From Pirellulales bacterium (GTDB taxonomy: Bacteria > Planctomycetota > Planctomycetia > Pirellulales > JALHPA01): a DNA stretch of 64,000 nucleotides. The notes under the pieces were generated by a model that made no database searches, was not told where the DNA came from, and saw only the letters and a program-made list of their open reading frames with translations. The translations under genes and the position numbers were made by a program. This document shows, one piece after another, positions 5,946 through 55,732 of the stretch (its first letter is position 1; the number at the start of each line of letters is the position of its first letter). The stretch is taken from positions 1 through 64,000 of the forward strand of contig JANRLT010000065.1 in assembly GCA_033762255.1 (NCBI GenBank), given 5' to 3'.

Positions 5946-6143
5946 CGATACTACAATCATGCGGGTGATCCAGAGTCAGCTAAGGACCAACAGCAGAGGG
6001 CTCAACGTGACAGGAAGTGAGATTCGACACATATGTTGGTGTTCGTTGCTGGCTATTAAGCTAATTTACATAGCAATACTTTTTAGTCGGTTGTAGATCT
6101 TGTGTAGGCAAGTGGATTTGATTTTTGAAGGTCTGTTCGCAAT

Positions 6144-8952: not shown

Positions 8953-8953
8953 C

Positions 8954-10816: not shown

Positions 10817-10912
10817 TCACGAGATCTCCGAAAAGTGTGAAGTGACATCATACATCAACTATCGGTCGACAATCTAGGTGTTCCTTCCGCGAAGCACAGT
10901 GATTGAGTCGGC

Positions 10913-11285
10913 TTAGGGATTTTCGGGCAGTACAGCGGTTGCCGATTCAGTCGGGAGGGGTTCGGCGGCGTCTTCCTTTTTCCAGACATCGGGCAGGAAT
11001 TGCGCCAACTCGGCGTGTCCGTTCCGCGAACACCAGCTTTTTTCTTTTTGGGCGGGGCGTCATGCTAGCGGCCAACTCTTACTGGGAGGCGGTCGATGGG
11101 GAATCGGGTGCGGGATGCGTCGAAGACGCTCGTGAGATACCACTGCTGGTCAACCCCGTGCCGCTCGCACGTGGCGATCAGCGACCAGAGCCGCGCATGA
11201 TTGGCGTAGGTCGCGTCGTTGCCAGCGAAGAACCAGTTTTTGCGGCCGATGGCAACCCGTTTGAGCGCCCGTTCGCTGGCGTGTG
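10913..11285 (-). pseudogene. Fragment of IS66 TnpC C-terminus, rearranged
   Basis: Two pieces of a TnpC C-terminus lie on the minus strand. Bases from about 11285 down encode ASERALKRVAIGRKNWFFAG followed by NDAT, matching the DDE-domain end of the intact TnpC at 15755-17401. Bases from about 11018 to the stop at 10913 encode AELAQFLPDVWKKEDAAEP, matching its last residues. The part between is altered and stops early. The rest of the transposase is absent, so this is debris downstream of the RHS tip locus and just upstream of qatA. Confidence 0.8.
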
Positions 11286-11330
11286 CCGGGCGTTAGGCTG
11301 CGGTTTCCCGCGCGCCAATCGTTCGCCGCT

Positions 11331-29853: not shown

Positions 29854-30507
29854 TTAGCGTGTTTCCTCTGTCACGGAAGCAGCTGTTTCCGTCCGCGCGA
29901 GTTGAGTGTATGCCTTGCGGATTTTTTGCGTTAGTCGACTCTTGATGATATAAACATTTCCCACGCTTACTTGAAATCGTTCTGCCAACTCTTCGGGCGT
30001 GCTCGTCTCGCTGACATAAGCCATATAGATTTGCCAGTGTTCCGGCTTGCATGATTCTCGAACTTGCGCGACAGCTTGAGCTTCCAAACTCGGTGGGCCA
30101 AATATTTGCGCGGAGCAGGTAGTCGCATCTCCGCAAGGAAGTTGTCCTAGCGATAAGCAATGATCGGTCCCTCCAGTGGCTTCAATCCGGGCCTCCTTTC
30201 CTTTGCGTCGATACCAATCGTGAATCCTGCTCTGCGTGACGGTTCTTAACCAGCCCCGGAATGTGTCGCCGGGCCGGTCACGCCTTAGCTTTGATAGCGA
30301 CTTTGCCACCGTTATAAACACTCCTTGCATCACTTCCGCCGCATCTGCATCTTGCAACCCAGAATCACGGCATTGCAAGTAAATCCGTCGTGAATAACGG
30401 TGCACCAAGTCGACCCAGGCAAACTGGTCGTTCGCAATAGCTGCCCGGAGCAAGTTACTAGCCGTGTCGCTAGAATCCTCCTTATTACTAACGAATTCGT
30501 CTTTCAT
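29854..30507 (-). CDS. ECF-type RNA polymerase sigma factor
   Basis: A 217-residue sigma-70 family protein. Region 2: FAWVDLVHRYSRRIYLQCRD and then DADAAEVMQGVFITVAKSL, RPGDTFRGWLRTVTQSRIHD. Region 4: STPEELAERFQVSVGNVYII and KSRLTQKIRKAY, a helix-turn-helix. The linker between regions 2 and 4 is about 50 residues and contains two or three Cys. GGAGG precedes the ATG at 30507. It is the first gene of the sigma-kinase-small protein-glycosyltransferase series, and may drive its own operon, though no promoter motif was identified. Confidence 0.93.
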   Translation of the reverse strand: MKDEFVSNKEDSSDTASNLLRAAIANDQFAWVDLVHRYSRRIYLQCRDSGLQDADAAEVMQGVFITVAKSLSKLRRDRPGDTFRGWLRTVTQSRIHDWYRRKGKEARIEATGGTDHCLSLGQLPCGDATTCSAQIFGPPSLEAQAVAQVRESCKPEHWQIYMAYVSETSTPEELAERFQVSVGNVYIIKSRLTQKIRKAYTQLARTETAASVTEETR

Positions 30508-30839
30508 CGTGCCTCCTTGGCTCAGCGAAATGTCATAGTTTGAAATGTAGGTCTGCTGAAAGGTATTGGCGTTCTTGAATTAGGGCAGTTGCTCTAGTAA
30601 GAATGTGCTGGCACGCGGTGAAAGGCTGATGTTGAGTCAAGCTCTATGCTCGAGCAATTTAACTTAATGGCAAGCGAAAGAACATCGAATGGATAATCAA
30701 GTGGTCCCCGCCATGACACGTTACCTCGAGGGGCAAGTCGATGCGACGGTCAGGCGGGAAACCGCATTTGTTTTAGCTTGCCCTCTTGTGATTGTCAATT
30801 TTTTGGGTTAGTTAAAAATTTGGTCAATCCAGGTTCTTG
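30508..30839. other. Intergenic, upstream of ECF sigma gene
   Basis: No credible coding frame. The sigma gene ribosome binding site is at its left edge. A pair of inverted GCAAGC/GCTTGC segments (about 30670 and 30775) brackets the centre. No promoter could be assigned with confidence. Confidence 0.4.
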
Positions 30840-31085
30840 AGTCGGTATAGTGCAGCGAGATTTGTTGTTTCCCTTTGGCTTCCACAACACAGGCCGTTTT
30901 TGTCTTCGTCTCTTCCACCTGTCGATCGCCATAATTTGGGTGAGCGACTGACAGCTAGCTCTGGCGAAAGCAGAAATCCCCGTATATTTCAGTGGAATGC
31001 TTGGTTGCGACGATTTTTTTCAGTCGTTGTTTCCTTAATGACTCACTGAATGAATTGAACTTGGCGCCCCTCCTCCCATGAGTAG
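30840..31085 (-). repeat. Diverged repeat, copy 2 (degenerate coding fragment)
   Basis: Counterpart of 14703-14935. The minus-strand translation LSVAHPNYGDRQVEETKTKT and EAKGKQQISLHYTDSRTWI parallels the other copy, and an in-frame TAG breaks it. The remaining bases up to 31326 hold no gene that I can support and contain the untranslated leader of the five-gene operon. Confidence 0.5.
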
Positions 31086-31326
31086 GCAACCCACTCCAAG
31101 CCAGGGTGAACCATCCTATTTCGCTATGATCCAATTTGGACATCTTTTGTGTTTCAAGTGAATTGGAAAATGCTGATGGATTTTCCTAAGAGCTAGGTGT
31201 CAATACTTTTGATGGCGACATGAACGATGTGTTTTTTTTAGGAGTACTGCGCCCAGGATCTAAGTGGTTTGGGTGCATCGGTGAATTTTCGTTGCAAAAT
31301 ATGGGTGTAACCAGATAGGCATTATA

Positions 31327-32184
31327 ATGTACCCAACTCAACGGGACTTAGAGCAAGTCCGTCAATCCATAAAGTCGTTTATTCATAGTTACGATATTCA
31401 GAAATCTACGCTCATTCTTGATGGTCCTGGGTATGGTTGCAGTCAGCAAGTTCTATGGTTGGCATTAATTGGCAAGGAACGGCTGGAATGCTTTCAGCGA
31501 ATTCATGTTTTTAGTGCCGCAGGATATGCCTACCTACTTTATCTTGCAAAGCAAACGGGCTGCTTGGTGTATAACAGCGATTCTATGAAACGCTGGAACT
31601 TAGATAATATGAAGAGTCATGGGATTCGAGCATTCGGTCTCACGTTGATGCGATTTCTTTTGTACAAAACGTTTATAGGTGGACCTTACTTCGGGAATGT
31701 ACTCTTAGCCGATCCTATAAATCGCTCGTTTACCAAAGAGTTTGCCGAAGCTCGAGTGACGAGCCTTCCAGCAAACATTTCATTCTGGGCATACGATGCC
31801 AATTCGCGTGCATTTATAGAAATAGATTCTAAGAATCGATTTTCGGAATTTACACTCAGTGAATTAATGCGAGCAATTGCTAGCATGCCTTATGTTTACG
31901 AATCGTTTTGCTTTAATGGCCATGTTTTACGTGATGCTGCAGTTCAAAACGGTGTAGGAGAGTTGTTTCGACAGTTAAGGTCCAGCTCAGATGGCTGTAT
32001 GTTTCTTAGCATGGAGCGAAGCGGACAGGACGGAAGTACGAGTTTCTACAAATTACACAAGCAACGATCGGGAAAACTGCGACTAAACAGGGACATGACT
32101 TTGTTTTTAGCTGGAATCGACAATCTCGAATTCGTTGAGTGTCTTAGGCTTGGTCTCTTTGAGTTGGAAGCACTATCTACTTAA
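31327..32184 (+). CDS. Degenerate patatin-like phospholipase-fold protein (gene 1 of five)
   Basis: 285 residues with the order of motifs seen in patatins. An oxyanion-type LDGPGYGCS turn (residues 31-39) stands where patatins have DGGGxRG. FSAAG with candidate nucleophile S63 replaces GxSxG, lacking the first Gly. LMRAIASMPYVYESF then leads into GHVLRDAAVQNGVG with D203, aligned with the DGG motif of the Ser-Asp dyad. Both catalytic residues are therefore in place but each motif deviates. It could be a membrane-damaging lipase, an altered specificity, or a binding protein. It opens a five-gene operon with a 14-base gap to the trypsin-NACHT gene. The start ATG has only a weak ribosome binding site (AGG). 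The patatin assignment is moderate and rests on motif order. Confidence 0.6.
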   Translation: MYPTQRDLEQVRQSIKSFIHSYDIQKSTLILDGPGYGCSQQVLWLALIGKERLECFQRIHVFSAAGYAYLLYLAKQTGCLVYNSDSMKRWNLDNMKSHGIRAFGLTLMRFLLYKTFIGGPYFGNVLLADPINRSFTKEFAEARVTSLPANISFWAYDANSRAFIEIDSKNRFSEFTLSELMRAIASMPYVYESFCFNGHVLRDAAVQNGVGELFRQLRSSSDGCMFLSMERSGQDGSTSFYKLHKQRSGKLRLNRDMTLFLAGIDNLEFVECLRLGLFELEALST

Positions 32185-32198
32185 CGCATCTTATTTGC

Positions 32199-34868
32199 AT
32201 GATTCCCTATCCGAGTAGTTCTGTGTGGTACATCCGAGTCTCGTCGAAAGGCGAGAGCGGACAAGGTTCCGGTGTTGGCATTCGGTTGAAAAGGAAGTTA
32301 CAGCCCGGTACGGAAGAAACATTCATTCTGACGTGTGCCCATGTGATTCGCCGCAAGGGTAAGAACGACCAGGAACTCGGTCCAAGGTATGAAAACCTTT
32401 GGGTGTATCCCGCTGGTTACGGCTATGAAGAAGCTGATGGGATTCCAGTTGAGCCAGTTACGTCAGTAATACCCCTGAAGACGTATTCTGGCAACACGTT
32501 CTACAATCAGCCGGTTGAGGATATTGAGACCGCGGACTGGGCACTGTTGGCTTTTACTGAGCTAAACTGGTCCCATTCGCGGACAAGTCATTCCTTAACT
32601 CGGCGCTGGCACCTGACAAATCTGGAGCTAGGAGACCAGTGCGTCATTTCCGGCTATCCAGAGGGAGAAGCCGGGTTCGCGGGTCACAACAATGGAAACG
32701 ACAACATTGTCCGACCTAAGCCAGGCTATGCGCTACAGACGATCGAAAAGGTTGTTGACAACATCATCACGTTCGATGGAACTCATTCACGATCCGGGAT
32801 GAGTGGCGGTGGAGTTTTTCGCAAGGATGGGGAGAATTACTCGCTGTGTGGCCTTCATCGAGCACGGCATGACGAGAGTCTGCAACTCAAAGCAGTATCG
32901 ATCCAAAGTATATTGCTTCGCTTGAATGAGTTGGGTTATGAACCAGTTGAGGTACCCGCCCCCAAAAGCGAGGCGTCTTGGTACTGGGCGATCTGGCAGT
33001 ATCTGAACAATGCGCCAGAACTCTTTGCTAAACTGCAGATTGCTAAAGGCTTCGTCACGCCCTCAGCCTATGTCGGCAGAGTAGTCGAAGACGGCGTGTT
33101 TCGGCAAAAAATCATCGAGTGGTTCACGAAGATACTCTGCGTTCCAGTTGAGAATCATTCGACGACTCTGCTGCTTGGGGGATATGGAAGCGGGAAAAGC
33201 AGCGTGCTGCATGTCTTGGGGCGTGACATGGCTCAAAACGCCTTAAGTGACTATCCCGAGAAGCCAATCCCAATCTACTGCCGCCTGGACGCCTGTAGGG
33301 GCAAGACATCACTCGCTGAGGGGGTGGCTGCGTTTTTGGCGCGCTACAGTGTCAACATATCGCCTGCATCGGTGAGCGAACTGTTCAACGACCCAGATCA
33401 TCAAGTGGTATTGCTGCTTGATGGACTCGACGAGTATTGCGATCGCGTTGACTATCAGCGTGTCTCACAGATTCTGGCTATGCTGGACGAGGCACGCGGG
33501 CTGTCGGCTCTGCAACTGGTGATTTCCTGTCGCGACACGTTCTTCCCGTCAGCTGACGACATTGCAATTGTTCACCCGGACACCATCGTCAAGCTGGCCC
33601 AATTCTCCGATGAACAAGTTTCGGAATATCTACAACTTTGGCAACCTGCACTGCCAGTCGAGACGGCGAGCATTCTAGAGACTTCGCAGCATCTCAAAGA
33701 TGTCTGCCGTTCGCCGATTCACCTCTTTTTGTTCTGCAAATACGTGTCGAAGCTCACTCCCGAAGACTTCCAAAAGGCAGCGACAGGGACGCCTGTTGTT
33801 CGCCGTGTTGACCTCTATCGATCGTTCACACTGGAGACGCTTTCAGCAGATCAAGCCGTTGCTGCTCGCTGGCCGATTTCCGAACGCCGTGTCTTCCTCC
33901 GCGAGTTGGCATTCCATTGGCACGACAAGTCCATCTCGGAATGGAGCTTGAGCGAGCTAAAATTGTTCGCAACACGTAGCTTCGGCACAATGCAGCCAGA
34001 CCAAGCACAAGTCGAAGAATGCGCCAACAGTATCTTCAACTGTTCGTTTTTCACTCGAGTTGGCGATCGCTTTCGGTTCAGTCACAAATCCTTTCAGGAG
34101 TTCCTAATCGCAGAGGCATTGGCTGACGAGATGAAAACTGGGAAGTTCTCCAAGTGGGAGACTCCCATGTACAATGAAGTCTATTTCTTCGGTGCAGAGT
34201 TGCTTCGCCCGACACCAGAGATGTTGACCGCTGTCTTCTCAAGTAACCTCTTGCGTACACAGGGGAATGTGCTTGCGACGATGTATAATGTGCCCTCTCC
34301 CGATGTCGACAGCTTGATCAGAAAGCTGGCGTTGACCTCGCCTTATACAACGGTTCGTCAAGTCGCAGTGCAGGCTCTTGGATTCTATCGGCATAAGTCA
34401 CGCGTTGCCCTCTCTCTAGATGAGCAGGCCGTGGGGCTTACTCTCGATATCCAAACTGCGTTGTCCGCGTATAGGGTCGAGAAAAACACAATTATTCGCG
34501 CCACACTGCAACTAATAATGGAATGGAGCAAGACTCAAGATGTCGTTCTTCAAAGTGCTGATCGAGACGCGCTACTGACGTCTATTGCTGAGGACAGCCC
34601 ACTGGAGAGAAAGGACGCAGAGGACATACTCGACGTTCGAACAGATAGCCGGATCATTCCCCTCTATCGGAAGGCAGCGATGCAACTTGACCATCGTTGG
34701 CCATCGGTAATTGGAGGCATTCTGCTGCTCGGAACAATCCAGGATACTGATTCTCGCCATGACCTCGAACAAGTTATCAAGCGATCGACTTCCAACGAAG
34801 TACGCCGAGCATGGCAGATCGTATCGCAGGGTTGGGGCCAGCCAAGCCAAAAGGACTCACAACAATAA
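32199..34868 (+). CDS. Trypsin-like protease fused to NACHT NTPase (gene 2 of five)
   Basis: 889 residues. Residues 1-250 are a trypsin-fold protease: LTCAHV (H48), TADWALLAF (D113), RSGMSGGGVF (S202). A linker with a Trp-rich patch leads to a NACHT-type STAND NTPase: GGYGSGKSS (327-335) is Walker A and VVLLLDGLDEYC (403-413) is Walker B with the extra acidic residues of NACHT, followed by LQLVISCRDTFF. HRFSFSHKSFQEF-type sequence (RFRFSHKSFQEFLIAEALAD) closes the NACHT module. The last 250 residues look helical and repetitive, HEAT-like, and could sense a ligand. No signal peptide or span. STAND proteins with fused proteases are known in bacterial immunity. Here the protease sits on the sensor, suggesting that ligand-induced oligomerisation switches on proteolysis (inference). 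Confidence 0.92.
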   Translation: MIPYPSSSVWYIRVSSKGESGQGSGVGIRLKRKLQPGTEETFILTCAHVIRRKGKNDQELGPRYENLWVYPAGYGYEEADGIPVEPVTSVIPLKTYSGNTFYNQPVEDIETADWALLAFTELNWSHSRTSHSLTRRWHLTNLELGDQCVISGYPEGEAGFAGHNNGNDNIVRPKPGYALQTIEKVVDNIITFDGTHSRSGMSGGGVFRKDGENYSLCGLHRARHDESLQLKAVSIQSILLRLNELGYEPVEVPAPKSEASWYWAIWQYLNNAPELFAKLQIAKGFVTPSAYVGRVVEDGVFRQKIIEWFTKILCVPVENHSTTLLLGGYGSGKSSVLHVLGRDMAQNALSDYPEKPIPIYCRLDACRGKTSLAEGVAAFLARYSVNISPASVSELFNDPDHQVVLLLDGLDEYCDRVDYQRVSQILAMLDEARGLSALQLVISCRDTFFPSADDIAIVHPDTIVKLAQFSDEQVSEYLQLWQPALPVETASILETSQHLKDVCRSPIHLFLFCKYVSKLTPEDFQKAATGTPVVRRVDLYRSFTLETLSADQAVAARWPISERRVFLRELAFHWHDKSISEWSLSELKLFATRSFGTMQPDQAQVEECANSIFNCSFFTRVGDRFRFSHKSFQEFLIAEALADEMKTGKFSKWETPMYNEVYFFGAELLRPTPEMLTAVFSSNLLRTQGNVLATMYNVPSPDVDSLIRKLALTSPYTTVRQVAVQALGFYRHKSRVALSLDEQAVGLTLDIQTALSAYRVEKNTIIRATLQLIMEWSKTQDVVLQSADRDALLTSIAEDSPLERKDAEDILDVRTDSRIIPLYRKAAMQLDHRWPSVIGGILLLGTIQDTDSRHDLEQVIKRSTSNEVRRAWQIVSQGWGQPSQKDSQQ

Positions 34869-34883
34869 TGGGGATGTCATAGT

Positions 34884-36590
34884 ATGCCGAGAAAGGTGAC
34901 ACTTGTTGATTTGGAGTCGACGTTTCCGAATCTGACGTCGCAATACGTCATGCCTCGGCATGGGGTTCTTCCAATTGGGACAGCACTTCATGAACGCGGT
35001 CATGATGTCGCTGTCTACGTGGAGGTTCTAAACGGTGTCAATCATGATCGGCTTGCCAATTCAGACGTTGTCGGCTTCGCGGTTACCGCTCCAAACCTGT
35101 CTCGAGTTGCAAGATTGTCTCGCGACTTGAAGAAGACAAATCCTAATTTGTTGGTGATCGCCGGGGGACCGCATGCAACGGTGAGTCCACGGGAAGCCCT
35201 CAACTTTGCGGATGTCGTTGTTCGAGACGAAGCGGAGATCACAATTGTAGAGCTTCTTGCAGCCGTTGATTCCAAATCGTCCTTTCAGAACGTCTCTGGG
35301 ATTTCGTATTGCGAGGGAAGTCGTGCAGTTCATAATCCGCGACGTCCCTACATGTCAGTTGCAGGACACAGGGAGAACCTGTCTTTACTCGCGGGATATA
35401 ATCCACGGTCTCGGCTTGCTGACATGCTGACATTGACTCAAAGATGTGCCCTGGTTGGCACTTCTCGGGGATGTCCATTTCCATGCTCTTTCTGCTACGA
35501 GAATATGATAGGGGGGACGGGTTTTCGTCGCAATACTACAAGTGGTATGATTGCTGACATTCGGGAAAAAAAGAAGTTTTTCGGGACAAATCGGTTTTGG
35601 ATTTCAGACAGTAACTTCGGCACAAACCCAACGCATACTGAGCAGACGCTTCAGTCAATTATCAATGCAGATCTGAATTGCGTATTTTCATCCCTTTGCC
35701 GCGTAGAAATTGGCAGTCGCCCACACATCCTGGACTTGATGAAAAAGGCAGGGATGTCGACAGTCTCAGTCGGGATGGAAACGCTTCGGGATGAGCAATT
35801 GACATCCATTGAAAAACGGCAGAGTGTTGATGACATTCGCCGGACCATCGATCAGATACAGTCTCATGGGATCGCAGTCTTTGGTCTCTTTATGGTCGGA
35901 TTCGATGATGACACGGAAGATACTCCGTGGGAGATCATCGAGTTTTGTCGAAAGGAGGGGGTCGCTGGACTGAGCCTTTATTGCTTGTCGGAATACCCAG
36001 CTCTGCCGGGTAGGTCTCTACCTAGGCATCGAATTTGCGAGGACAATCTTGACTATTATAGTGGCCACTTCGTAACAACTTTTCCGAGACGAGTACGACC
36101 AAGTGTCTTAGAACAAAACGTGTATGACGCCCTTCTCGATTACTACAGTGTGTCGAAGATTATTCATGGCTTAGCAACTCTAGACAGACGCTCTCTGCAA
36201 TTTGGTGTTCCACTTTATTGGCAGATGAGGAAGATGGCCGCTATTTCCAAGTCTCACTGCGATGCATTACGGTCTCGCGAGGAGCGGTATTACTCACATG
36301 GGGGTGTTCTTCACTTGGATTTACTCCAAGCTTCTCCGTGGCTCAACTCTGCGCTTCCTGAGGATACGATGGAGTGCTGGGCTGACGCTGTCGAACATCG
36401 GCCAGCATCTGAAGGACCGCGATCGGAATCCACTCAGTTGTTCGCAGCTGGTTCGGAGGAGTACGGGCAGGTCAATTTTGGTAACGAGGCACCGCACTAC
36501 GCAACGAGCAACTGCCAGACATCATCTGCAATTCATAACTCAGGAACAGGCAGTGACACAAAAATTTTCGACAGCGAGATAATCCGATGA
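34884..36590 (+). CDS. B12-type radical SAM protein (gene 3 of five)
   Basis: 568 residues. Residues 1-130 resemble the cobalamin-binding domain of B12-type radical SAM enzymes (VVGFAVTAPNLSRVARLSRD, LLVIAGGPHATVSP), although the DxHxxG ligand motif is not evident. The cluster motif SRGCPFPCSFC supplies C197, C201 and C204 (CX3CX2C), and the barrel continues with FWISDSNFGTNP, GMSTVSVGMETLRDEQL and GLFMVGFDDDTED. The last 90 residues are Ser/Asn-rich and probably disordered. Members of this group do methylations and C-C or C-S bond chemistry. The substrate here is unknown. It overlaps the lipase gene by ATGA and lies 15 bases after the NACHT gene, so it is part of the unit. Confidence 0.88.
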   Translation: MPRKVTLVDLESTFPNLTSQYVMPRHGVLPIGTALHERGHDVAVYVEVLNGVNHDRLANSDVVGFAVTAPNLSRVARLSRDLKKTNPNLLVIAGGPHATVSPREALNFADVVVRDEAEITIVELLAAVDSKSSFQNVSGISYCEGSRAVHNPRRPYMSVAGHRENLSLLAGYNPRSRLADMLTLTQRCALVGTSRGCPFPCSFCYENMIGGTGFRRNTTSGMIADIREKKKFFGTNRFWISDSNFGTNPTHTEQTLQSIINADLNCVFSSLCRVEIGSRPHILDLMKKAGMSTVSVGMETLRDEQLTSIEKRQSVDDIRRTIDQIQSHGIAVFGLFMVGFDDDTEDTPWEIIEFCRKEGVAGLSLYCLSEYPALPGRSLPRHRICEDNLDYYSGHFVTTFPRRVRPSVLEQNVYDALLDYYSVSKIIHGLATLDRRSLQFGVPLYWQMRKMAAISKSHCDALRSREERYYSHGGVLHLDLLQASPWLNSALPEDTMECWADAVEHRPASEGPRSESTQLFAAGSEEYGQVNFGNEAPHYATSNCQTSSAIHNSGTGSDTKIFDSEIIR

Positions 36591-37651
36591 AAAAGTCTTC
36601 AGCTACTTTTCTGACACCATCGTATACATTGACAGTGTCAGTGTCATTGGGAACACCCGTACTTCATCGGGATTCGAACAGAGATCTGATTTCCGATGTA
36701 ATTCCCAAAACGACGGAAGGTCAATCAGTACCTTCACCGCCGGCGATTGACACCGCACCGTTCCACCAGGACTCCCTCTCGAACTCGACCTTCAACTGGA
36801 AGGCCGCCTTGTCGTTGGCGCTCGCGAGCAAACTGGCTTATGAGTCCGAAGTGAGTGTCAGGTCGACGTGCCTTGGCTCGGCGAGAGCATGGGGGTTCGA
36901 TTCCTGTGAGTTCATAGATGTCGATGACACGCAATGCTTTGTCGCGTCGTCCCCTGAAATCGCGTTAGTCTCATTTCGCGGAACCGAAAGTCGTGGCGAC
37001 TGGCTGCGAAACATAAATGTTCCTGGTCGAACACGTGACTACGGAATTGTACACCGGGGGTTCCTCGGCGCTTTTCAAGCCGTCGAGTCTCGAATAAGGT
37101 CGACTATAACAGGAATCCACGGGCGAAAGCTCATTTTGACAGGTCATAGTTTGGGCGGAGCTCTTGCAACTGTGATGGCTGCCGAGTGGCAAAATTTCAT
37201 GCCAGCATCCTGGATCGTGACATTTGGACAACCCGCTGTCGGTACCGGTGCTTTTCAAATGTTCTTCCAGCAACACTACTTCGGTAAGTTCTTCCGTTTT
37301 GTGAATGACGACGACATCGTGCCCCGTGTACCTCCGGGTTATAGGCATGTAGGTCGCTTGCTGCATTTCGATGCACGAGGCAACCTACAGAATGGTCAGA
37401 CTCTGCCACAGACAGAACACCTTGGCGTAGAGTCGCTGCAATTGGAATCGCAAAACCAAGGTTTGCCCATGCTGAGTGAAGCTGAGTACGAAGTCCTCCA
37501 ATCGCGGATTGGACAGGAGGTTGTTCGGGTGAATCGTTCGTTGTCGGAATCAGTCTCACGACCGCAATCAGAAGGTTTCTTCCCCAGTGTCAACGATCAC
37601 AGCCTTGACAAATACATCGCCAAGATTATCGCCAAGGTGGGATCTAGGTAG
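36587..37651 (+). CDS. Class 3 lipase (gene 4 of five)
   Basis: A 354-residue protein of the fungal-type lipase class 3 family. The nucleophile motif LTGHSLGGALA holds S188. VTFGQPAVGTGAF, then FVNDDDIVPRVPP (Asp near 243) and GYRHVG (H254) complete the triad. SFRGTESRGDW is the lid/oxyanion-side motif of the family. The N-terminal 75 residues precede the lipase fold, have no signal peptide and begin with SYTLTVSVSLGTPV, similar to linker sequences in the two protease-nuclease proteins of this region. Translation is coupled to the radical SAM gene (ATGA). Likely substrate: membrane or stored acylglycerols or phospholipids of the producing cell, as in suicide-type defence (inference). C-terminal 60 residues are helical. 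Confidence 0.9.
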   Translation: MKKSSATFLTPSYTLTVSVSLGTPVLHRDSNRDLISDVIPKTTEGQSVPSPPAIDTAPFHQDSLSNSTFNWKAALSLALASKLAYESEVSVRSTCLGSARAWGFDSCEFIDVDDTQCFVASSPEIALVSFRGTESRGDWLRNINVPGRTRDYGIVHRGFLGAFQAVESRIRSTITGIHGRKLILTGHSLGGALATVMAAEWQNFMPASWIVTFGQPAVGTGAFQMFFQQHYFGKFFRFVNDDDIVPRVPPGYRHVGRLLHFDARGNLQNGQTLPQTEHLGVESLQLESQNQGLPMLSEAEYEVLQSRIGQEVVRVNRSLSESVSRPQSEGFFPSVNDHSLDKYIAKIIAKVGSR

Positions 37652-37703
37652 ATCACAACCAAAAAAATCCTCTCATTCCTTCGCCATTCACAGGAGACTT
37701 CCC

Positions 37704-39917
37704 ATGCCCAGAGACGCCTCATTTCTAGCCCTTCGTAGAAAGCTTTCCAAGGTTGCCGGAGCCAACAAGCTGGAATCGCTGGCATTAGGGAGAACGACTC
37801 GGCCAGTGGTTGAGAGTGGTCTAGAAAACCTGCCTGGCAATTCCCCTGGAATCAGGGGAGCGTTGGATTATCTTGTAACACGATCGATTGATGCGGACGC
37901 TGTGGCTCTGCGTAAACTGGAGAACGGCGACTTTGAAGACATCTCACCCCGCGAGCGTAGGCATCTCGAAGCGATTGTCGAAGAAGATGGCCGCCCGGTT
38001 GTGTTCATCATCGACGATCAATATGACGTGCTCCCGGCACCATGGACGCAACTCAATGTAGATCCAGTACGCACGCGCATCAATACGGTGATTCCATCCA
38101 TCGGTCGCATTGAAGATATCTCCGGAGGAATCCCGCAGCACATCGGCACCGGCTTTATCGTCGGCCCAAATCTCATGATGACGAACCGGCACGTGGCGGA
38201 GGCCTTCGTGCGCGGTGTGGGTCGTGTCCGCAATCAACTGTCCTTCGTGCCCGGGATTGAGTCAGCGATTGATTTCCGACGTGAAAACGAACTCGAACCC
38301 AATGATCTTTCCACCAGTTTCCGCCTGACCGACGTGGTTATGATACACCCATATTGGGACATGGCGCTGTTCCGGGTCGATGGACTTACCACAGCGAATG
38401 GTACACTACGAATGTCAGTACGAGCACCAGAGGATCTGATCGGTCGTAATATCGTGGCGATTGGCTATCCCGGACGAGGCAAGGATCGGTCTCGTCGTGC
38501 AGTACGGCTAGAACGAAAAGTATTTGGGACAACCTTTGGCGTCAAGCGCCTGGCTCCTGGCGAGATCGAGGTTCGAGAACGAATCGAGAGCTTCGACCAC
38601 ATTGTACCCGCAATGACCCACGACAGTTCCACGCTAGCCGGAAATTCGGGTTCCGCTATTGTCGATATTGAAACAGGAGAGGTGGTGGGGCTACATTTTG
38701 CTGGCATAACGCTCAAAGCGAACTACTCGGTGCCGATGTTCGAACTGGCCCGTGATCCGCGCGTAGTGGATGCAGGTGTTAACTTTGTGGGCAGCGTTCC
38801 GTCGACTGACGAATGGGACCGCGTATGGCGCGGCATCGAGTCACTGAGCGGCGGCGGAGTCACGTCTGCAGCCATTCCAGATACTCAAGTCATTTCCAAT
38901 CAGACTGGAAACCAGACGGCCACTTGGACGATTCCTATCCAAGTCTCAATTACATTGGCACAACCAGTAATGGGGGCTGCCGACGTACCAATGACGGCAC
39001 CCGTTAGCGCCGCTCGCGAAGCGACGTTTCAAGTCCCGGTCATTCATCCCGACCTGGAACTGCGGACTGGATATGATCCGAACTTTTTAGAGCTCGACGG
39101 TGGTGAAATGGTCCCTCTCCCGCAACTCACAGCGGCTGGGGTAAATGCCGTTTCTCAGCTGGGAGATGGCAGCCATGAACTGAAGTACCACCGATTCTCC
39201 GTCGTCATGCATAAGCATCGTCGACTGGCGCTTTTCACGGCTTCCAACGTCAGTTGGCAACCCGGCGACAAATTCCTGTCCGACGGTCATAAGCCGACTC
39301 GCGATGAACTCAACGGCTTCGAGGATGACAATACACAAGAAGCCTGGGTAATTGACCCGCGTATTCCTACCGAAGAGCAATTGCCTGACAAGTTCTTCAT
39401 CAAGGATCAAGGGGCCTTCGACCGCGGTCATCTTGTCCGCCGAGATGATGTGGCCTGGGGGGACTCATTCGAGGACATGCAAAAGGGGAATGGCGACACG
39501 TTCCACACAACGAACTGTTCACCACAAGTGGCCAAGTTCAATCAGGCTACGAAAGGTGTCGACAATTGGGGCGACCTCGAAAACATGATTGCAGACGAAA
39601 CGACAACCGAACGGGTGATCATGTTTTCTGGGCCAGTTCTCGATCCAGCCGATAAACGTTTTAATGGAGTAGATTCCAGCGGACCGGTCAAAATTCAAAT
39701 CCCTAAGCAGTTCTGGAAGATCATTGTTGCAAAGACAGAAGACGGCCCCAAAGCCTTTGGCTTTGTGCTCAAACAGAAATTAACAAGCGTTCCACTGGAA
39801 TTTGCTGTACCTGAGGACTGGGAGCCCTACCAAGTGCCGATCTCCGAAATCGAGGACTTAATGTTCGGCCTCGTTGAATTCAGTTGGTGTAAAGAGCGAG
39901 ACTCTATGGATTTATAG
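37704..39917 (+). CDS. Trypsin-like protease fused to DNA/RNA non-specific endonuclease (gene 5 of five)
   Basis: 737 residues from the ATG at 37704, chosen because AGGAG precedes it; the frame is open further upstream, within the lipase gene. A helical N-terminal region (1-100) is followed by a trypsin fold: MMTNRHVAEA (H163), HPYWDMALFR (D219), LAGNSGSAIV (S315). A linker (about 385-445) contains ATWTIPIQVSITLAQPV. The C-terminal domain is a NUC/EndoG-type beta-beta-alpha-metal nuclease: KYHRFSVVMHKHRR, then AFDRGHLVRRDD (general base H576) and TTNCSPQVAKFNQ (metal ligand N613). The canonical DRGH is present. No signal peptide, so it probably acts in the cytoplasm. Protease domain may be self-releasing or be cleaved by the NACHT-linked protease. 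Confidence 0.92.
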   Translation: MPRDASFLALRRKLSKVAGANKLESLALGRTTRPVVESGLENLPGNSPGIRGALDYLVTRSIDADAVALRKLENGDFEDISPRERRHLEAIVEEDGRPVVFIIDDQYDVLPAPWTQLNVDPVRTRINTVIPSIGRIEDISGGIPQHIGTGFIVGPNLMMTNRHVAEAFVRGVGRVRNQLSFVPGIESAIDFRRENELEPNDLSTSFRLTDVVMIHPYWDMALFRVDGLTTANGTLRMSVRAPEDLIGRNIVAIGYPGRGKDRSRRAVRLERKVFGTTFGVKRLAPGEIEVRERIESFDHIVPAMTHDSSTLAGNSGSAIVDIETGEVVGLHFAGITLKANYSVPMFELARDPRVVDAGVNFVGSVPSTDEWDRVWRGIESLSGGGVTSAAIPDTQVISNQTGNQTATWTIPIQVSITLAQPVMGAADVPMTAPVSAAREATFQVPVIHPDLELRTGYDPNFLELDGGEMVPLPQLTAAGVNAVSQLGDGSHELKYHRFSVVMHKHRRLALFTASNVSWQPGDKFLSDGHKPTRDELNGFEDDNTQEAWVIDPRIPTEEQLPDKFFIKDQGAFDRGHLVRRDDVAWGDSFEDMQKGNGDTFHTTNCSPQVAKFNQATKGVDNWGDLENMIADETTTERVIMFSGPVLDPADKRFNGVDSSGPVKIQIPKQFWKIIVAKTEDGPKAFGFVLKQKLTSVPLEFAVPEDWEPYQVPISEIEDLMFGLVEFSWCKERDSMDL

Positions 39918-40424
39918 CGTGACAAAGCTCATTTGAACTCCCTACGAAGCCATGATGACTGGAACGTTACTAGATCATTTTAACCGTAGTAACACTGAGG
40001 CGATCTTGGCTATGAGACAATGGTGACGTATCGCTCCCAGCGGTGCAACTCGTAAAAGGTATAGTGGCCCTAGCCAGATGTGGTATTCCATTTAACTTTG
40101 TCCGTACTGGTAAGAATGCTTTGTATCAGTAACTTGGGCTGGGGGCACTAAATGTCCTTAAGCTCCATCGTAATGCATTTACGCCAAATAAAGTATCGAA
40201 TTGTCCAGTCCCTGCACAAGTCTGCGAACTTACCTTACCACTTGATGTTAGGGAATTCGCTGATATTCCCGTCTGTGAGATGCATCCTTGGCTGGAATAA
40301 CGGGCCGCAACCTCCCGTGTCGAGAAATGAGGCGATATTTTCCGATTTGCAAGACGCCAGCGTTAATTCTTACGTGCGAGTCTGTTGAGAGATCGGTACG
40401 CATCATGCTGATAGGAGTGGAATC
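39918..40424. other. Intergenic between the five-gene operon and haem-motif gene
   Basis: About 500 bases without a gene that can be supported. A short plus-strand frame (40152-40388) lacks a ribosome binding site and does not look like protein. It contains the leader of the gene at 40425, with AGGAG nine bases before that ATG. Confidence 0.4.
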
Positions 40425-42239
40425 ATGCTGAAGAATTGCCAGAAAATCTATATCCTCTCGTTGTGCTTGGCATTTATCGCTGCCATGGCCTCGGTAGCGA
40501 TCGCAGTGGATGGAGCAAATTCTTCCCCTACGCGATTGGATGTGAACGATATTTCCATACTTTGGCCAGTTCCCAAGAGTAGCGATGACCTGAATAAACT
40601 TATCGCACTTGATGAAAAACTGGCCGATGGAATCAGTACAATCTGTCCGGAAAACGCCTTCCAGCAATTGGTAACCACCGCTCAAGGGGTGAATGTCTCT
40701 GGGTCTGCCGGAAACATTGTCCAGATAAAATTTCGCAATCAGAAAGCGGCATTTGAATCCGCGACGAACTGGATAATCGCTGGGATTCGTATCGACCCTT
40801 CCGCACCGGGGTGCGACAAAAAGCTAATTGCCGCGTTCGGTTCTACGCCACAGATTCGACTGATCGTCCAGCCTGTGACGCGGCAGGGTGAAAAGGTCAT
40901 TGTTCATGATGTTACAGCCCATCTGGTCTATAGCTTTGTGGCTGGCATCGAACCTGCTACCGCGAGTGGCCTTCCTGCTCGAGTCAATCCGGACAAAGCC
41001 AAATTCAAAATCGTTCTGGATGATCTCGCCACGCTCAAAGCGGAACTCCTGGCTGCCGGGATCAATAGCGATGGGGAACTGAGTGTCCATCCGGCATTTG
41101 CCTCCGAGACTATAAAGTTTCCTGAGAAGCTCCGGGTCTTCCTCAAAAAGCACCTCTCGGCAGAGCAATTGAGTGCGATGGCCTTTATGGGAATTGATTC
41201 TCCCGAGCCTTGGATTTTCTTCGCGATGGTCAAGCAGGAAGGCAAATTTGTTCGTACAGGACATCCAACCCTGGGAACAGAACAGGCCCAGATGTTGACT
41301 TTTCGAGGTGGCGATAAAGTAATGCCGCATCCTAAGAATTCGACCTTCGGCAATGGATTTGGAGTGAGTACTTCAGTACTCTTCGAACCTGTTAATCTTG
41401 ATGGCTTGTTGTTACCTGGAGGCGAACACCCGGCCACGTTTCGGGAAATACCCGATATCGTCGCCAATCCGCAGATCTCCCACTTTTTTAACACTGACTG
41501 CGTCAGTTGCCATAGCGAGAGCACCAGGCGGTCTAATCTTAGCTTGCAGGGAACTGTGTCCCCTTTTCAGTTCCAGCGCCCTGCAGGGATTTCTGGAGTG
41601 AATGACGCTGTTTTGGCTAAGCATGAGTGGAACGTGCGAAATTTCGGTTGGTTTCCCGATTTTTTCAATGAGGGGAAGGCGGTGGAGTCAGTCTCGATGA
41701 GGACGGCCAACGAAGCTGCCGAATCAGCAGCATTTATCAATCGTGAGTATTTCACCAACACACCGGAGCCTGTAATGACCAAGAATGTAACCAACGCATT
41801 GACGTTAGTGATGACCATCAAATCGCCAGACGACAAAGTGAAGCTCAAGCAATTAATTACCTCGCTCCAGCAGCTCCCACCGGAGAAAAATCCGATCGCA
41901 GTTGCCCTAACCAAATTGGGAAACGTGCACTTCGCAAGATTTGTCTTCATCGGCGATGATCAATTGGCTGTAATCACTTCCTACGACAACGACTTTGAAA
42001 CCTACATCCTCTCCTTTGTCGATGAATTGGGTGAGGTCTTTGATAAACTCCTGGTCCACATCAAAGACGCGCCACCCTTACCGGTCAAGGAGCATCCCGA
42101 GGCGTTTTTGGAATTTGTCAAAAAGCGTGACTTAATTTGTGAGCCGCCGTTTTATAGCGCCTATCCGACGTTGAAGGTGCAAGATATCCTGACGTTGCAG
42201 AAGAAGGCGACTGAGCCGACAAGCAATCCCAGGCAATGA
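40425..42239 (+). CDS. Secreted protein with c-type haem motif
   Basis: A 604-residue protein. A signal peptide is clear (basic start, hydrophobic ILSLCLAFIAAMASVAIA, cleavage near residue 28), and AGGAG precedes the ATG. Most of the sequence is not recognised. Near the middle NTDCVSCHSESTRR holds CxxCH (C359, C362, H363), the haem c attachment motif. The C-terminal 130 residues (GNVHFARFVFIGDDQLAVIT, then DFETYILSFVDELGEVFDK) resemble the start of Dyp-type peroxidase folds or related ferredoxin-like domains. It is therefore likely a periplasmic redox or oxidase-type protein. It is in the same direction as the five-gene operon but 500 bases away and exported, so a common role is uncertain. 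Confidence 0.75.
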   Translation: MLKNCQKIYILSLCLAFIAAMASVAIAVDGANSSPTRLDVNDISILWPVPKSSDDLNKLIALDEKLADGISTICPENAFQQLVTTAQGVNVSGSAGNIVQIKFRNQKAAFESATNWIIAGIRIDPSAPGCDKKLIAAFGSTPQIRLIVQPVTRQGEKVIVHDVTAHLVYSFVAGIEPATASGLPARVNPDKAKFKIVLDDLATLKAELLAAGINSDGELSVHPAFASETIKFPEKLRVFLKKHLSAEQLSAMAFMGIDSPEPWIFFAMVKQEGKFVRTGHPTLGTEQAQMLTFRGGDKVMPHPKNSTFGNGFGVSTSVLFEPVNLDGLLLPGGEHPATFREIPDIVANPQISHFFNTDCVSCHSESTRRSNLSLQGTVSPFQFQRPAGISGVNDAVLAKHEWNVRNFGWFPDFFNEGKAVESVSMRTANEAAESAAFINREYFTNTPEPVMTKNVTNALTLVMTIKSPDDKVKLKQLITSLQQLPPEKNPIAVALTKLGNVHFARFVFIGDDQLAVITSYDNDFETYILSFVDELGEVFDKLLVHIKDAPPLPVKEHPEAFLEFVKKRDLICEPPFYSAYPTLKVQDILTLQKKATEPTSNPRQ

Positions 42240-44631: not shown

Positions 44632-46815
44632 TTAGTCTTTAAATACAAGACGAGCCCAATCGGGATGGTCAATAAACGGATTTCGGTTCTTCTGAATATC
44701 CGCGATCGCCTGGTTACGGTGTAATTCGTGCTCGGTCACCGGCGTTCCTTCATGCCAATCAAGGAGGGTCTCCAAACCTTGTTGCACATCTTCGTACATG
44801 TTCTCGAAATGCCCTCGATAACGCACGAAAAAGTAGAGCGTGGCCCTGGCGACTTTACCTTTTCCCATGAACGGTTCGAACAATCCATCATCCGAGAAGC
44901 CACATTTCGGCCGGTCCGCTTCCTGTGCGATTGAAAACTTCCCGAAGTCGTTGTAAGGACGATTCCCGCGAAAACTATTGCATTGACTCTGACACGTGAA
45001 CAGATGATGCAAGTCCCCTTGCATCGGTGCGTCGTTGCCAAACCAGGATTGCGGGACAACATGTTCGCAGTTAAACGGTTGTTGTGCTTCGAGCATTGCC
45101 GTCATTCGTTCCAGCGCCTCCGGCGAGCGATTCCCCTCCCGCAATGAACGGCGCTCGATAAGCTGCTCCAGGTGTCTCTCAATCCCAAAATCCTCTTTGA
45201 TAAACTGTTTCGGATTGAATCGTTCATCGGAGTAGATACTCCGTACTTTTTTGTCTCGCTGCAGATCGACCCAGGCATACAGGTGTTCAATTCGTGCTAC
45301 TTTGTATGACAATTGCTGCTTGTGCGTCTGGGTTACAAGAGCATTGAGATCGTCGAACAACGAAGTGCTGCGCGGGTCGATGTCACGATAATAATTGGCT
45401 CGGCTCGTTTTGTCACGCTCCTTTTCGTAATACGTACGCGTCTGTGAACGCTCCAAATTCAGGAGGCCTCTTTCTACAAGATTTACCGATTCAGTCCTTG
45501 TATCTCCCGTATCTGTGTTTTTTACACTGGACTTCCGCCAGGTTCTAACTCGGTCGGGAGTATCATGTGAGAAAGTTACCACGACAGGGGTTGAATCTCC
45601 AACGCTCACTGTAACGGTCAAGCTGTGTGCTGTGACACTGCATTTGTTAGTGTAGATAGGTTGCTCAATATCATTGCCAGGTGCGAGATGTTTTTCCGAT
45701 GGCGGCACTTCGTCAACCCTCCTGTCGCCTAGTTGTTCCTCTGAGTATGGTGGGTTGTTGGTTTCACGGGGAAATTCCGCTAATATTGCTGGCCAAGCGT
45801 TGCCATGCTTCTTGGCAACTTGGCGTATGACATCAGCAACAATTCGGCTAATTCGAATCCCTTCATTGCCGATCCATTTAATTAAATTCGGATCATCCGT
45901 GTCAGGATTCCAGATCCGGTTATCGGATGTGAGGATATTGCCTTTAGAATCCTTTAGCGGTACACCAGCATGATGTAGGCAAATGACCTGCCACTGATCA
46001 TTGAACACAGGGGATCCAGAAGATCCAGGCAGCGTATCGGATTCGTAGTGCACATACCGTTCGAGTAGCGCAGTAAATCGGTTCTGTCGCAATGCCAGCC
46101 GCTTGGGCGCACCATTGGGGTGTTGGAGAATATTCAGGCATTCGCCCCGTAATGCATTGGCGACCGATGTCTCCAAACGGAGAAATCCGAAGTCGGATAT
46201 CGCAATCGAGCCGGACACAGATATCGGTTCCACGGCCACCAACGTATAGTCGAGTTCGTCTTCGGGGCTAGAGAAAAAGAGTGCCTGAGGTGCAAGTTTA
46301 AATGGAACCGATGTTTCCATCCCGACACCAATCAAGCGATCCTCGTAGTTAAACTCAGCCATACACAGCATCGCAGTTGCGGGATCCCCAATGACATGAG
46401 AATTGGTGAGTAACAATCGTGGCGTCACTAGAAATCCGGTTCCAATTCTTCGGTAGTTCTCCTGGATGCAACAGACCGATTTGGTTGCTTCGGCCCCCCG
46501 TTCCAGAAAAACGGATGAGAGCAGATCGTTCTCCCCAATAATCCGCTCCAAGCCAGGGTTTTTGGGCCGCGGCAACGTGCGTGCCTCACGAGTGTCAACG
46601 GCCTCTTTGAAACTTCGGGCGAAATTTTCTGCGGTTTCTGTCCCGATCCCTAGATCGGCGACCCTTCTTTCTACCCGGTCGACGCGCTCTATTTCAACCG
46701 GCGACTTGCCAATCTTGATTTGCTCCTTCACAAACTCCCGTTCACCGGCCGAATCACGGAAGCGAGGGCCAACTCCCTTAAGTCTAAGTTGCGATTTGAT
46801 ATCACTTTGTGACAT
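44632..46815 (-). CDS. Trypsin-like protease fused to Endonuclease I domain
   Basis: 727 residues. A helical N-terminal region (1-110) precedes a trypsin fold: LLLTNSHVIG (H140), DELDYTLVAV (D189), LPGSSGSPVF (S266). A linker (about 350-500) includes HSLTVTVSVGDSTPVVV. The C-terminal domain has NCEHVVPQSWFG (H585) followed by MQGDLHHLFTCQSQCNSFRG, the Endonuclease I (EndA/NucM-type) signature. All catalytic motifs of both domains are present. No signal peptide, unlike secreted EndA. Architecture parallels the protein at 37704-39917, with the same protease-linker-nuclease order but an unrelated nuclease, so both are probably protease-controlled effectors of one strategy (inference). No strong ribosome binding site at 46815. 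Confidence 0.9.
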   Translation of the reverse strand: MSQSDIKSQLRLKGVGPRFRDSAGEREFVKEQIKIGKSPVEIERVDRVERRVADLGIGTETAENFARSFKEAVDTREARTLPRPKNPGLERIIGENDLLSSVFLERGAEATKSVCCIQENYRRIGTGFLVTPRLLLTNSHVIGDPATAMLCMAEFNYEDRLIGVGMETSVPFKLAPQALFFSSPEDELDYTLVAVEPISVSGSIAISDFGFLRLETSVANALRGECLNILQHPNGAPKRLALRQNRFTALLERYVHYESDTLPGSSGSPVFNDQWQVICLHHAGVPLKDSKGNILTSDNRIWNPDTDDPNLIKWIGNEGIRISRIVADVIRQVAKKHGNAWPAILAEFPRETNNPPYSEEQLGDRRVDEVPPSEKHLAPGNDIEQPIYTNKCSVTAHSLTVTVSVGDSTPVVVTFSHDTPDRVRTWRKSSVKNTDTGDTRTESVNLVERGLLNLERSQTRTYYEKERDKTSRANYYRDIDPRSTSLFDDLNALVTQTHKQQLSYKVARIEHLYAWVDLQRDKKVRSIYSDERFNPKQFIKEDFGIERHLEQLIERRSLREGNRSPEALERMTAMLEAQQPFNCEHVVPQSWFGNDAPMQGDLHHLFTCQSQCNSFRGNRPYNDFGKFSIAQEADRPKCGFSDDGLFEPFMGKGKVARATLYFFVRYRGHFENMYEDVQQGLETLLDWHEGTPVTEHELHRNQAIADIQKNRNPFIDHPDWARLVFKD

Positions 46816-47354: not shown

Positions 47355-48551
47355 ATGCACGGGAGTCCATCCGATCGAATTGTACTTCGTAGTAAGCTCT
47401 CGTTTCGTCGAACTAGGACCGCTGGTCCACTTGGTGCTGGACCATTCGGATTAGAAAGCTTGCCCACATTGGTTGAGCCTATTCTCGAACAAGCTCATTT
47501 AACGGCTGCAGAGGCAGCCGATTTGCAGCGCGATCCAGAAGTCGTGGTGGTGGCCGATCCCATGCCTCTAAAATTGATCGAGCCTGTAGGAACTCCCGAA
47601 CCAACTCCTACGGCAGTCGGCAATACATGGGGAGTTGAAGCGGTTAAAGCTCACACCAGCCCATTTACTGGAGCAGGAGTTGTCGTTGCCGTTTTGGATA
47701 CGGGGATTAACTCTAGCCATGTCGCCTTTCAAGGGGTTCAATTAGTCCGTCGCAATTTTACTCAAGGAAGTAATGACGATGAAGTAGGTCACGGTACGCA
47801 TTGTGCCGGAACAATCTTTGGCAGGGATGTTAACGGACTACGCATTGGTGTGGCGCGGGGTGTCACCAAGGCATTAATCGGAAAAGTCCTGGGGCCTGGT
47901 GGTGGTTCATCTGCCACTTTGGCAACTGCGATCAATTGGGCTTATGAAAATGGCGCCAATGTCATTTCTATGTCGCTGGGCATCGACTTTCCTGGCTTCG
48001 TTGCTGAATTGATTGACCAAGGCTTACCAGTTGAAGCAGTGACGTCAATCGCACTTGAACAATATCGGGCCAATGTGAATTTATTCTCAAGCTTAACCCA
48101 GTTGTTGGCACAATCCAATGCCTTCTCACAAGCAGCAATTATCATTGCAGCCTCAGGTAATGAAAGCAATCGACCTACGTACGAAGTCGCTGTAGCACCG
48201 CCAGCAGCGGGTGATGGTATGATCTCCGTCGGAGCATTACAGCGTTCTGCTGCCGGTAACCTAAGCATTGCCGCTTTTTCAAACACACAATGCAATTTAT
48301 GTGGACCGGGCGTAAGTGTGACGTCTGCTTGGATCGGCAGCAATAGCATATTGCAGACACTCCAAGGCACGAGTATGGCCACTCCACACGTAGCTGGATG
48401 TGCAGCTTTGTGGGCCCAACAACAGTTGCAACTTACGGGTGTTTTAACCAACAAAAACCTTGCAGCCAAAACTCTCGCATCAGCCGTTTTTGTTCCCGGC
48501 GCGTCATTTGATAACATCGGCAACGGCATGGTGCAAGCACCGCAAAATTAA
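47355..48551 (+). CDS. Cytoplasmic S8 subtilase
   Basis: A 398-residue subtilisin-like protease. Triad: VVAVLDTGIN (D115), VGHGTHCAG (H146), QGTSMATPHVAG (S340). The oxyanion Asn region AASGNES is present. No signal peptide or export propeptide is evident: the first 90 residues are basic and Pro-containing. It likely acts in the cytoplasm or is exported unconventionally. An insertion of about 60 residues (VAELIDQGLPVEAVTSIALE and following) separates helices in the core. Cytoplasmic subtilases occur in bacterial conflict systems with STAND proteins and nucleases (family knowledge), and it is divergent to the trypsin-Endonuclease I gene, which supports a shared role. Confidence 0.9.
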   Translation: MHGSPSDRIVLRSKLSFRRTRTAGPLGAGPFGLESLPTLVEPILEQAHLTAAEAADLQRDPEVVVVADPMPLKLIEPVGTPEPTPTAVGNTWGVEAVKAHTSPFTGAGVVVAVLDTGINSSHVAFQGVQLVRRNFTQGSNDDEVGHGTHCAGTIFGRDVNGLRIGVARGVTKALIGKVLGPGGGSSATLATAINWAYENGANVISMSLGIDFPGFVAELIDQGLPVEAVTSIALEQYRANVNLFSSLTQLLAQSNAFSQAAIIIAASGNESNRPTYEVAVAPPAAGDGMISVGALQRSAAGNLSIAAFSNTQCNLCGPGVSVTSAWIGSNSILQTLQGTSMATPHVAGCAALWAQQQLQLTGVLTNKNLAAKTLASAVFVPGASFDNIGNGMVQAPQN

Positions 48552-54544: not shown

Positions 54545-55732
54545 ATGGGGAGGAATTTGACTAGAGAAGCGAGAGACGACCAAGGAAAGGTCATACCACT
54601 ATTTGGCAAGGACGAAATGAACCTGATCGAGTTTCCCTTCGGGCCAATCAGTACCACTACGGGCAAAACGCTGGAGGTTGAACATGCGACGTTCGACCGG
54701 AGGCTTAAACGCGAGGTCACCCGCACGCTCATCATCACCGGCTCAGACAAATGGGGGCTGCCGCGACCGATAGACGACCAAGTGCTCTTGGGAATGAAAG
54801 CTTTAACCTATGAAGCAGGGTGCGTGTCACCAAAGATCGCTTTCAGCCGTTACCGGCTCTGTCAGGTCATCGGCTGGCCCCCGGATGGACGGGCTTACCG
54901 GCGTTTGGAGGAATCGCTCGACCGCATCGCCGCCACAACCCTCAAGTTCAAGAACGCGTGGTGGGACAAGGGGGAGAAACAGTATAAGTCCAAGACCTTC
55001 CATCTGATCACGGAGGTAGAGATTTGCAATCGAGACCAACTTGATCTGAGTCGCGTCGCGACTGGCCGCTCCGAGCAGCAGCTTTGCACGTTTACCTGGA
55101 CCGAAGTGATCTGGAAAAGTTTTCAGGATGGGTTTATCCGCACACTCGACATGCAGCTTTTCAGGCGTATCGCTCAAGGGCGTCGCCGCGAAGTGCCACT
55201 CCGGCTGTTTCGAGTCCTTGATAAACGGTTCTATCACGCGCCGGTTGCCAAGTTCGACCTCCGCCGACTTTGCATCGGCACGCTGGGACTTTGTCCGAAC
55301 TACAGCCCCAGCCAGATGATCCGTGTTCTCGACCGCGCGGGCAAATGGCTGACCGAGTGTGGCTATCTGCAAGAGGTTTGGTACACAGGGCAGGGCAAAA
55401 ACATCGACGCCTGTTTTCGTAAACGAATCACGGCGCTCCAGCGCCCCCCACGCAACCTTGGTCAGGAAACTATTGGCTCCATGCACATGCTACCTCACGG
55501 CGTTGATCGTCTGAAAACTTGGATCAAGGAGCAGTGCGAAGCCGATTTGTGGCGGTACGAAACCGACGCGCTCGCCAGCGCCTTCGGGTCTGAACTGGAA
55601 CGGTCCATCGTCACCAAGGAGCGCGAGCAGGGGTTGCCTGTGCTGAGCGGCGGACGGACCCGCCTAGAGTATGTTCGCCGCTACTACGAACGTCAGGTAG
55701 AAACCTTGCCCAGCGCTGCTGTGGCGAGTTGA
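54545..55732 (+). CDS. Plasmid replication initiator (RepA/RPA-like)
   Basis: 395 residues. The beginning GKDEMNLIEFPFGPIS and the later segment TLIITGSDKWGLPRPIDDQV, then GWPPDGRAYRRLEESLDRIA and LFRVLDKRFYHAPVAKFDLR, match the general look of replication initiator protein A of iteron plasmids in several phyla. Winged-helix DNA-binding domains are expected. There is no strong ribosome binding site before the ATG at 54545; an internal start at 54617 would remove the conserved GKDEMN motif. The gene directly follows six iterons, which supports the role. The last 90 residues are variable. Confidence 0.85.
   Translation: MGRNLTREARDDQGKVIPLFGKDEMNLIEFPFGPISTTTGKTLEVEHATFDRRLKREVTRTLIITGSDKWGLPRPIDDQVLLGMKALTYEAGCVSPKIAFSRYRLCQVIGWPPDGRAYRRLEESLDRIAATTLKFKNAWWDKGEKQYKSKTFHLITEVEICNRDQLDLSRVATGRSEQQLCTFTWTEVIWKSFQDGFIRTLDMQLFRRIAQGRRREVPLRLFRVLDKRFYHAPVAKFDLRRLCIGTLGLCPNYSPSQMIRVLDRAGKWLTECGYLQEVWYTGQGKNIDACFRKRITALQRPPRNLGQETIGSMHMLPHGVDRLKTWIKEQCEADLWRYETDALASAFGSELERSIVTKEREQGLPVLSGGRTRLEYVRRYYERQVETLPSAAVAS

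Follow-up and report, generated by a model that had tools for sequence, protein, structure and literature searches.

Gene content and genomic setting of the locus

The window, that is the whole stretch of planctomycete DNA that was analysed (64,000 nucleotides), contains a gene for a B12-binding/radical SAM protein, which is the third in a row of five same-strand genes (Table 1). The others encode an orphan protein, a trypsin-like peptidase joined to a NACHT-type STAND NTPase (trypsin-NACHT), a class-3 lipase, and a trypsin-like peptidase joined to a NucA nuclease domain (trypsin-NucA). The spacings are 14 bp, 15 bp (between the trypsin-NACHT and radical SAM genes), a 4-bp overlap and then ~52 bp; the overlap, on which the first-pass annotation had based a translational coupling of the radical SAM gene to the lipase gene, was read directly in the DNA as ATGA. 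The five genes are in all likelihood co-transcribed. Promoter- and terminator-like sites in 30500-40500 were no commoner than in shuffled sequences, and no Rfam family matched in the window at the gathering thresholds, so no cobalamin riboswitch was seen.

Table 1. Features of the operon, of the radical SAM protein and of their surroundings
Feature	Position	Strand	Basis or detail
QatABCD, complete anti-phage system	6144-10816	-	QatD 6144-6872, QatC 6872-8137, QatB 8134-8952, QatA 8954-10816
First gene, orphan, 285 aa, weak patatin-like match	31327..32184	+	E=0.05, below cut-off
Trypsin-like peptidase + NACHT STAND NTPase + weak HEAT match, 889 aa	32199..34868	+	Pfam
B12-binding/radical SAM protein, 568 aa, intact	34884..36590	+	ORF list, Pfam, structure model
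B12-binding domain, residues 18-124	34935..35255	+	Pfam PF02310, E=1e-12
GGPHAT motif, residues 94-99	35163..35180	+	Family alignment
Radical SAM core, residues 193-355	35460..35948	+	Pfam PF04055, E=3.8e-18
[4Fe-4S] motif CPFPCSFC, C197/C201/C204	35472..35495	+	Family alignment
LSEYP, residues 368-372	35985..35999	+	Comparison with relatives
Tail, residues 487-568, non-conserved	36342..36587	+	Alignment, composition, structure model
ATGA overlap, lipase start/radical SAM stop	36587..36590	+	Read from DNA
Class-3 lipase, 354 aa	36587..37651	+	Pfam
Trypsin-like peptidase + Endonuclease_NS (NucA)	37704..39917	+	Pfam, junction sequence
Cytochrome-c-like protein, CVSCH motif	40425..42239	+	By eye; homology to L086
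Trypsin-like peptidase + Endonuclease_1	44632..46815	-	37% over 727 aligned positions to L086
Subtilisin-family (S8) peptidase	47355..48551	+	Neighbouring gene
Plasmid-type replication initiator (RPA/TrfA)	54545-55732	+	Within window
Tyrosine recombinase	L107:4570-6210		~4.6 kb past window end

Searches for the orphan in plasmids and in genomes of the order (146) and the phylum (294) found no relatives; it also has no sequence match in the PDB, and its structure model is poor. The trypsin-NACHT protein has Trypsin_2 at residues 41-212 and NACHT at 322-481 (Pfam); across 198 genomes of the class a single further match was found, and it covers the trypsin part only. Lipases 47-50% identical to that of the window were found in three genomes of the order. 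For the trypsin-NucA gene the likely start is the ATG in Table 1, whereas the listed ORF begins at GTG 37587. In its make-up the operon resembles a bacterial system for immunity or cell suicide, and the place that the first-pass annotation gave to the radical SAM gene in a conflict-type operon was borne out, with the trypsin-NACHT gene on one side and the lipase and trypsin-NucA genes on the other.

Beyond the tyrosine recombinase, apparent trmD, rpsP and ffh genes were recognised by eye. Because a plasmid-type initiator and a tyrosine recombinase lie ahead of these housekeeping-like genes, the window seems to belong to an integrated mobile element that carries several systems of the defence type. 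The window also encodes a tubulin-like protein (59174-61297, +) followed by a vWA-domain protein (61323-63182, +).

The radical SAM protein

The boundaries of the radical SAM gene were confirmed and the frame runs through them without interruption; the choice of start codon is consistent with the alignment of the nearest relative, which begins at that protein's own N-terminus. Composition is coding-like along most of the frame, tail included, with a coding score near or just under zero in three stretches; shifting the frame lowers the score, the one exception being a frame at residues 431-486. Both Pfam domains exceed their curated cut-offs, and a whole-genome family search returned the same interval for the B12-binding domain.

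The cluster motif reads C197-x3-C201-x2-C204, its cysteines being invariant across the family alignment, and all nine residues that are invariant in 84 relatives (9/9) are present in the window enzyme. The GG-x-H of the B12 domain is also kept, with G95 invariant and G94 and H97 nearly invariant in the alignment of 84 sequences. One departure is S243, which replaces a nearly invariant Asp (D in 92% of relatives).

A Ser/Asn-rich tail of about 90 residues had been taken by the first-pass annotation as a hint of a different reaction. The tail is there, but it comprises ~82 residues and is only modestly rich in these amino acids (S 11 and N 5 of 82). The alignment gave no counterpart of residues 487-568 in the relatives, where a conserved tail had been suggested as a check, and disorder is predicted from about residue 496 (pLDDT <50). 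Unconserved and disordered, the tail therefore says nothing on the reaction.

Enzyme class

The protein has the layout of class B, in which a B12-binding-type domain at the N-terminus precedes the radical SAM core (by Pfam and by fold matches to TsrM, MgmA and OxsB), together with the CxxxCxxC cluster motif. A structure model built from the 84-sequence alignment has a mean pLDDT of 85, and its top structural matches are AprD4 (Z 29.2), MgmA (26.9), CysS (26.0), TsrM (25.0) and OxsB (24.7), with MiaB at 21.8. MgmA (9ccb), CysS, TsrM, OxsB, TokK and AprD4 (6fd2) share the same two-domain fold over residues 1 to ~450; the known class-B enzymes and AprD4 align at Z 21-29 with an rmsd of 3-5 Å and the cluster motif kept, although at an identity of 14-19% only. 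In this model the window enzyme has the structure of a class-B radical SAM protein, in agreement with the cobalamin-type assignment first made from the GGPHAT motif. Unlike known class-B enzymes, it carries L-x-[ED]-[YF]-P where a Pro-containing motif is usual, as well as the disordered tail.

Cobalamin binding is likely, judging from the domain and its retained motif. AprD4 shares the fold yet is not known to use cobalamin, and since it is the best structural match, cobalamin use by the window enzyme is not certain. B12-binding domains also occur in two other ORFs of this genome, one of 1238 aa, putatively MetH-like by its size only, and one of 639 aa; the longer ORF makes cobalamin use plausible.

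At family level, no NCBIfam model reaches its cut-off. The families scored include BchE, HpnJ, HpnR, PhpK, KedN5, ApyD and TIGR04013; the highest scores, all below cut-off, are to BchE (103 bits against 481) and HpnJ, with a ladderane lipid family lower. Ten relatives are also under every NCBIfam cut-off among the matches listed, and the relatives tested commonly give BchE/HpnJ-like scores. The enzyme thus appears, from these profile scores, to lie outside any named housekeeping radical SAM family. Membership among the methylthiotransferases (MiaB/RimO/MtaB), which have an N-terminal MTTase domain with three cluster-binding cysteines, was rejected: residues 1-130 contain no Cys, there is no MTTase Pfam match, and the MtaB model gives 23 bits against 357. 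The PADLOC candidate defence family PDC-M51A gives 57 bits with the window enzyme and 39-52 bits with five relatives outside such an operon, so this match is not specific.

Relatives of the enzyme

In searches of 57 genomes of the order and 392 of the phylum, identities over the greater part of the enzyme stayed at or below 34%, and a scan of genome contigs gave none above 31% among the matches listed. Peptide patterns found no close relatives in 84,980 species genomes or in IMG/VR. Plasmid matches are generic (≤28.5% identical among the matches listed), and a phage search gave one weak match.

A quick tree places the window enzyme in a set of eight with 98% support (SH-aLRT), together with an Anammoxibacter protein, other Planctomycetota and two Actinomycetota; long branches leave the exact sister of the window enzyme unsure. 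The signature L-x-[ED]-[YF]-P, at window residues 368-372, is common to most of the eight. Position 370, an acidic residue in the window enzyme, is Pro in 73 of 76 sequences from outside this set. The two actinobacterial members (loci L149 and L152) adjoin carrier-protein-like and ketosynthase genes, surroundings that are possibly an undescribed biosynthetic cluster. At L149 (Actinocrinis puniceicyclus) the homologue adjoins an acyl-AMP ligase gene, and a PEP-mutase-like gene is near. At L152 (Streptomyces cupreus) two radical SAM genes, 8476-9783 and 9780-11306, share a 4-bp overlap.

Comparison with known conflict systems

The operon fits the description of System 3 by Kaur et al. (2020, PMC7159879), which combines NucA with trypsin, either as a fusion or within a single operon, sometimes with S8 peptidases and sometimes with a STAND NTPase that has an N-terminal trypsin; some of these operons carry an EAD1 or a Death-like bDLD2 domain, and deployment of the nuclease through a proteolytic cascade has been proposed (PMC7159879). 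In the window, trypsin and NucA (Endonuclease_NS) are joined in one protein, the trypsin-NACHT protein is a STAND NTPase with an N-terminal trypsin, and there are more trypsin genes and an S8 peptidase nearby. The class-3 lipase, the orphan first gene and the B12-type radical SAM gene go beyond System 3, and the System 3 section of that work mentions no lipase and no radical SAM gene (PMC7159879). Its single mention of a radical SAM component is in the FtsH ternary (vWA-MoxR) systems, where a stand-alone radical SAM gene likewise lies within a conflict operon and was proposed to modify a peptide effector; the core of these systems differs (vWA-MoxR-FtsH), and no B12 domain is mentioned in the text searched (PMC7159879).

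The best-conserved related system is in genome G484 (locus L086), of the same order, with homologues of the trypsin-HNH protein (37%), the trypsin domain (45%), the lipase (42%), NucA (53%) and, beside the system, the cytochrome-like protein (36% identical). It has MoxR-like and beta-propeller-lipase genes, but lacks homologues of the orphan, trypsin-NACHT and radical SAM genes. Behind the MoxR-like AAA gene of this locus, positions 1489-6711 encode a 1740-aa protein with WD40-type beta-propellers and a class-3 lipase, suggestive of a beta-propeller ternary conflict system whose effector is a lipase.

A short, beta-strand-like motif, [IV]-x-[IV]-P-L-x-I-x-V-S-[LI]-G, recurs in proteins of System-3 loci, either between trypsin and effector domains or, in stand-alone effectors, near the N-terminus, and might serve for assembly or for amyloid-like docking. 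The strict form occurs in five proteins: the L084 lipase (residue 84), the L086 trypsin-lipase (393) and NucA (20), the L098 trypsin (394) and the L100 trypsin-NucA (209). No window ORF has the strict pattern; looser forms were seen by eye in the window lipase (about residues 8-25), in the trypsin-NucA linker and in the trypsin-HNH protein, and the radical SAM protein is without any form.

Recurrence of the association

The association was searched for in both directions by tblastn (E 1e-3) in sampled genomes. None of 90 radical SAM loci had homologues of the orphan, trypsin-NACHT, lipase, trypsin-NucA, cytochrome-like, trypsin-HNH or S8 proteins, with flanks of up to ~9 kb, many ended by contig edges, and none of 15 System-3/lipase loci had a radical SAM homologue, tblastn being insensitive to distant relatives. 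Within this sampling, the radical SAM gene is therefore an addition found in this operon alone. The first-pass annotation had held that the coupling to the lipase makes the gene no bystander; the overlap does indicate co-expression, but the association is confined to the window operon among these loci. Of the two observations that it had named as speaking against its reading, unlinked neighbours in relatives were found, whereas no placement in a named housekeeping family was.

Interpretation

Class-B enzymes are of a kind usually found in biosynthesis, and one of them is an unusual part for an operon of this type. Its pairing with this operon is new and is known from one genome, and a literature search gave no direct match for a B12-type radical SAM enzyme in defence. 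Here it is proposed that a biosynthetic-type enzyme was recruited into a System-3-like operon as a co-expressed accessory enzyme of the trypsin-NACHT/lipase/trypsin-NucA machine, a reading for which belief and doubt are evenly balanced. It is favoured by the tight operon, the System 3 domains, the invariant residues kept, the confident class-B model and the two actinobacterial clade members beside carrier-protein and ketosynthase genes, as well as by the precedent of the stand-alone radical SAM gene in a related conflict system (PMC7159879). The lack of recurrence, G484 without the enzyme, AprD4 as the top structural match and the departure at S243 all weaken it.

Alternatively, a biosynthetic or metabolic class-B gene could have been placed in the operon by chance shuffling of the integrated element, with no role in conflict. 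This is a serious contender, though on the improbable side: the association does not recur either way, the nearest relatives are lone or biosynthetic genes, the tail is non-conserved, and shuffling is common on elements such as this one appears to be, with its plasmid-type initiator and tyrosine recombinase. Such a passenger would have to be reconciled with the close packing on both sides, the intact motifs and the coding-like composition, and with the ATGA overlap, since a 4-bp overlap would rarely be expected from random insertion. It is unlikely that the enzyme acts instead on a small molecule or lipid, making or altering, with the lipase and the possibly patatin-like first gene, a lipid or acyl signal sensed by the NACHT-trypsin protein, or shielding the cell's own lipids from the lipase. 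The direct coupling to the lipase, the weak patatin match, the ranking of BchE, HpnJ and the ladderane lipid family among the NCBIfam scores and the carrier-protein, ketosynthase and (at L149) acyl-AMP ligase genes of the clade point that way, but those scores are far under cut-off and of a kind usual among the relatives, and the model of the first gene is poor.

To our knowledge, the radical SAM enzymes with antiviral roles are viperins. A viperin-like antiviral nucleotide enzyme would agree with the radical SAM core, which both have in common, and with the defence context; it is nevertheless extremely improbable. The window enzyme has the B12-type N-terminal domain that viperin is without, its structural match to viperin is to the core only (Z 13.4 over about 204 residues, 187-422, against Z 29 over 403 residues for AprD4), and no viperin model appears in NCBIfam or PADLOC among the matches listed. 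The distinction from viperin drawn by the first-pass annotation was thus upheld.

Under the recruitment reading, the gene would have been acquired once, as an accessory gene for maturation or effector modification. An invader would be sensed by the NACHT-trypsin protein, which would set off a proteolytic cascade; the lipase and the nuclease would thereby be released, and the cell would be killed. The enzyme, with its [4Fe-4S] cluster, S-adenosylmethionine and probably cobalamin, would alter a C-H bond of a system component or product. The commonest C-H alteration in class-B radical SAM enzymes is methylation. The most plausible targets would be the coupled lipase, the product of the orphan first gene, or an acyl or lipid substrate linked to them; a specific protein-modifying role of the enzyme is doubtful and stands well on the unlikely side.

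The significance of the finding rests at present on one genome. If the enzyme is functional in this setting, immune chemistry would extend to class-B radical reactions, linked to protease-triggered killing.
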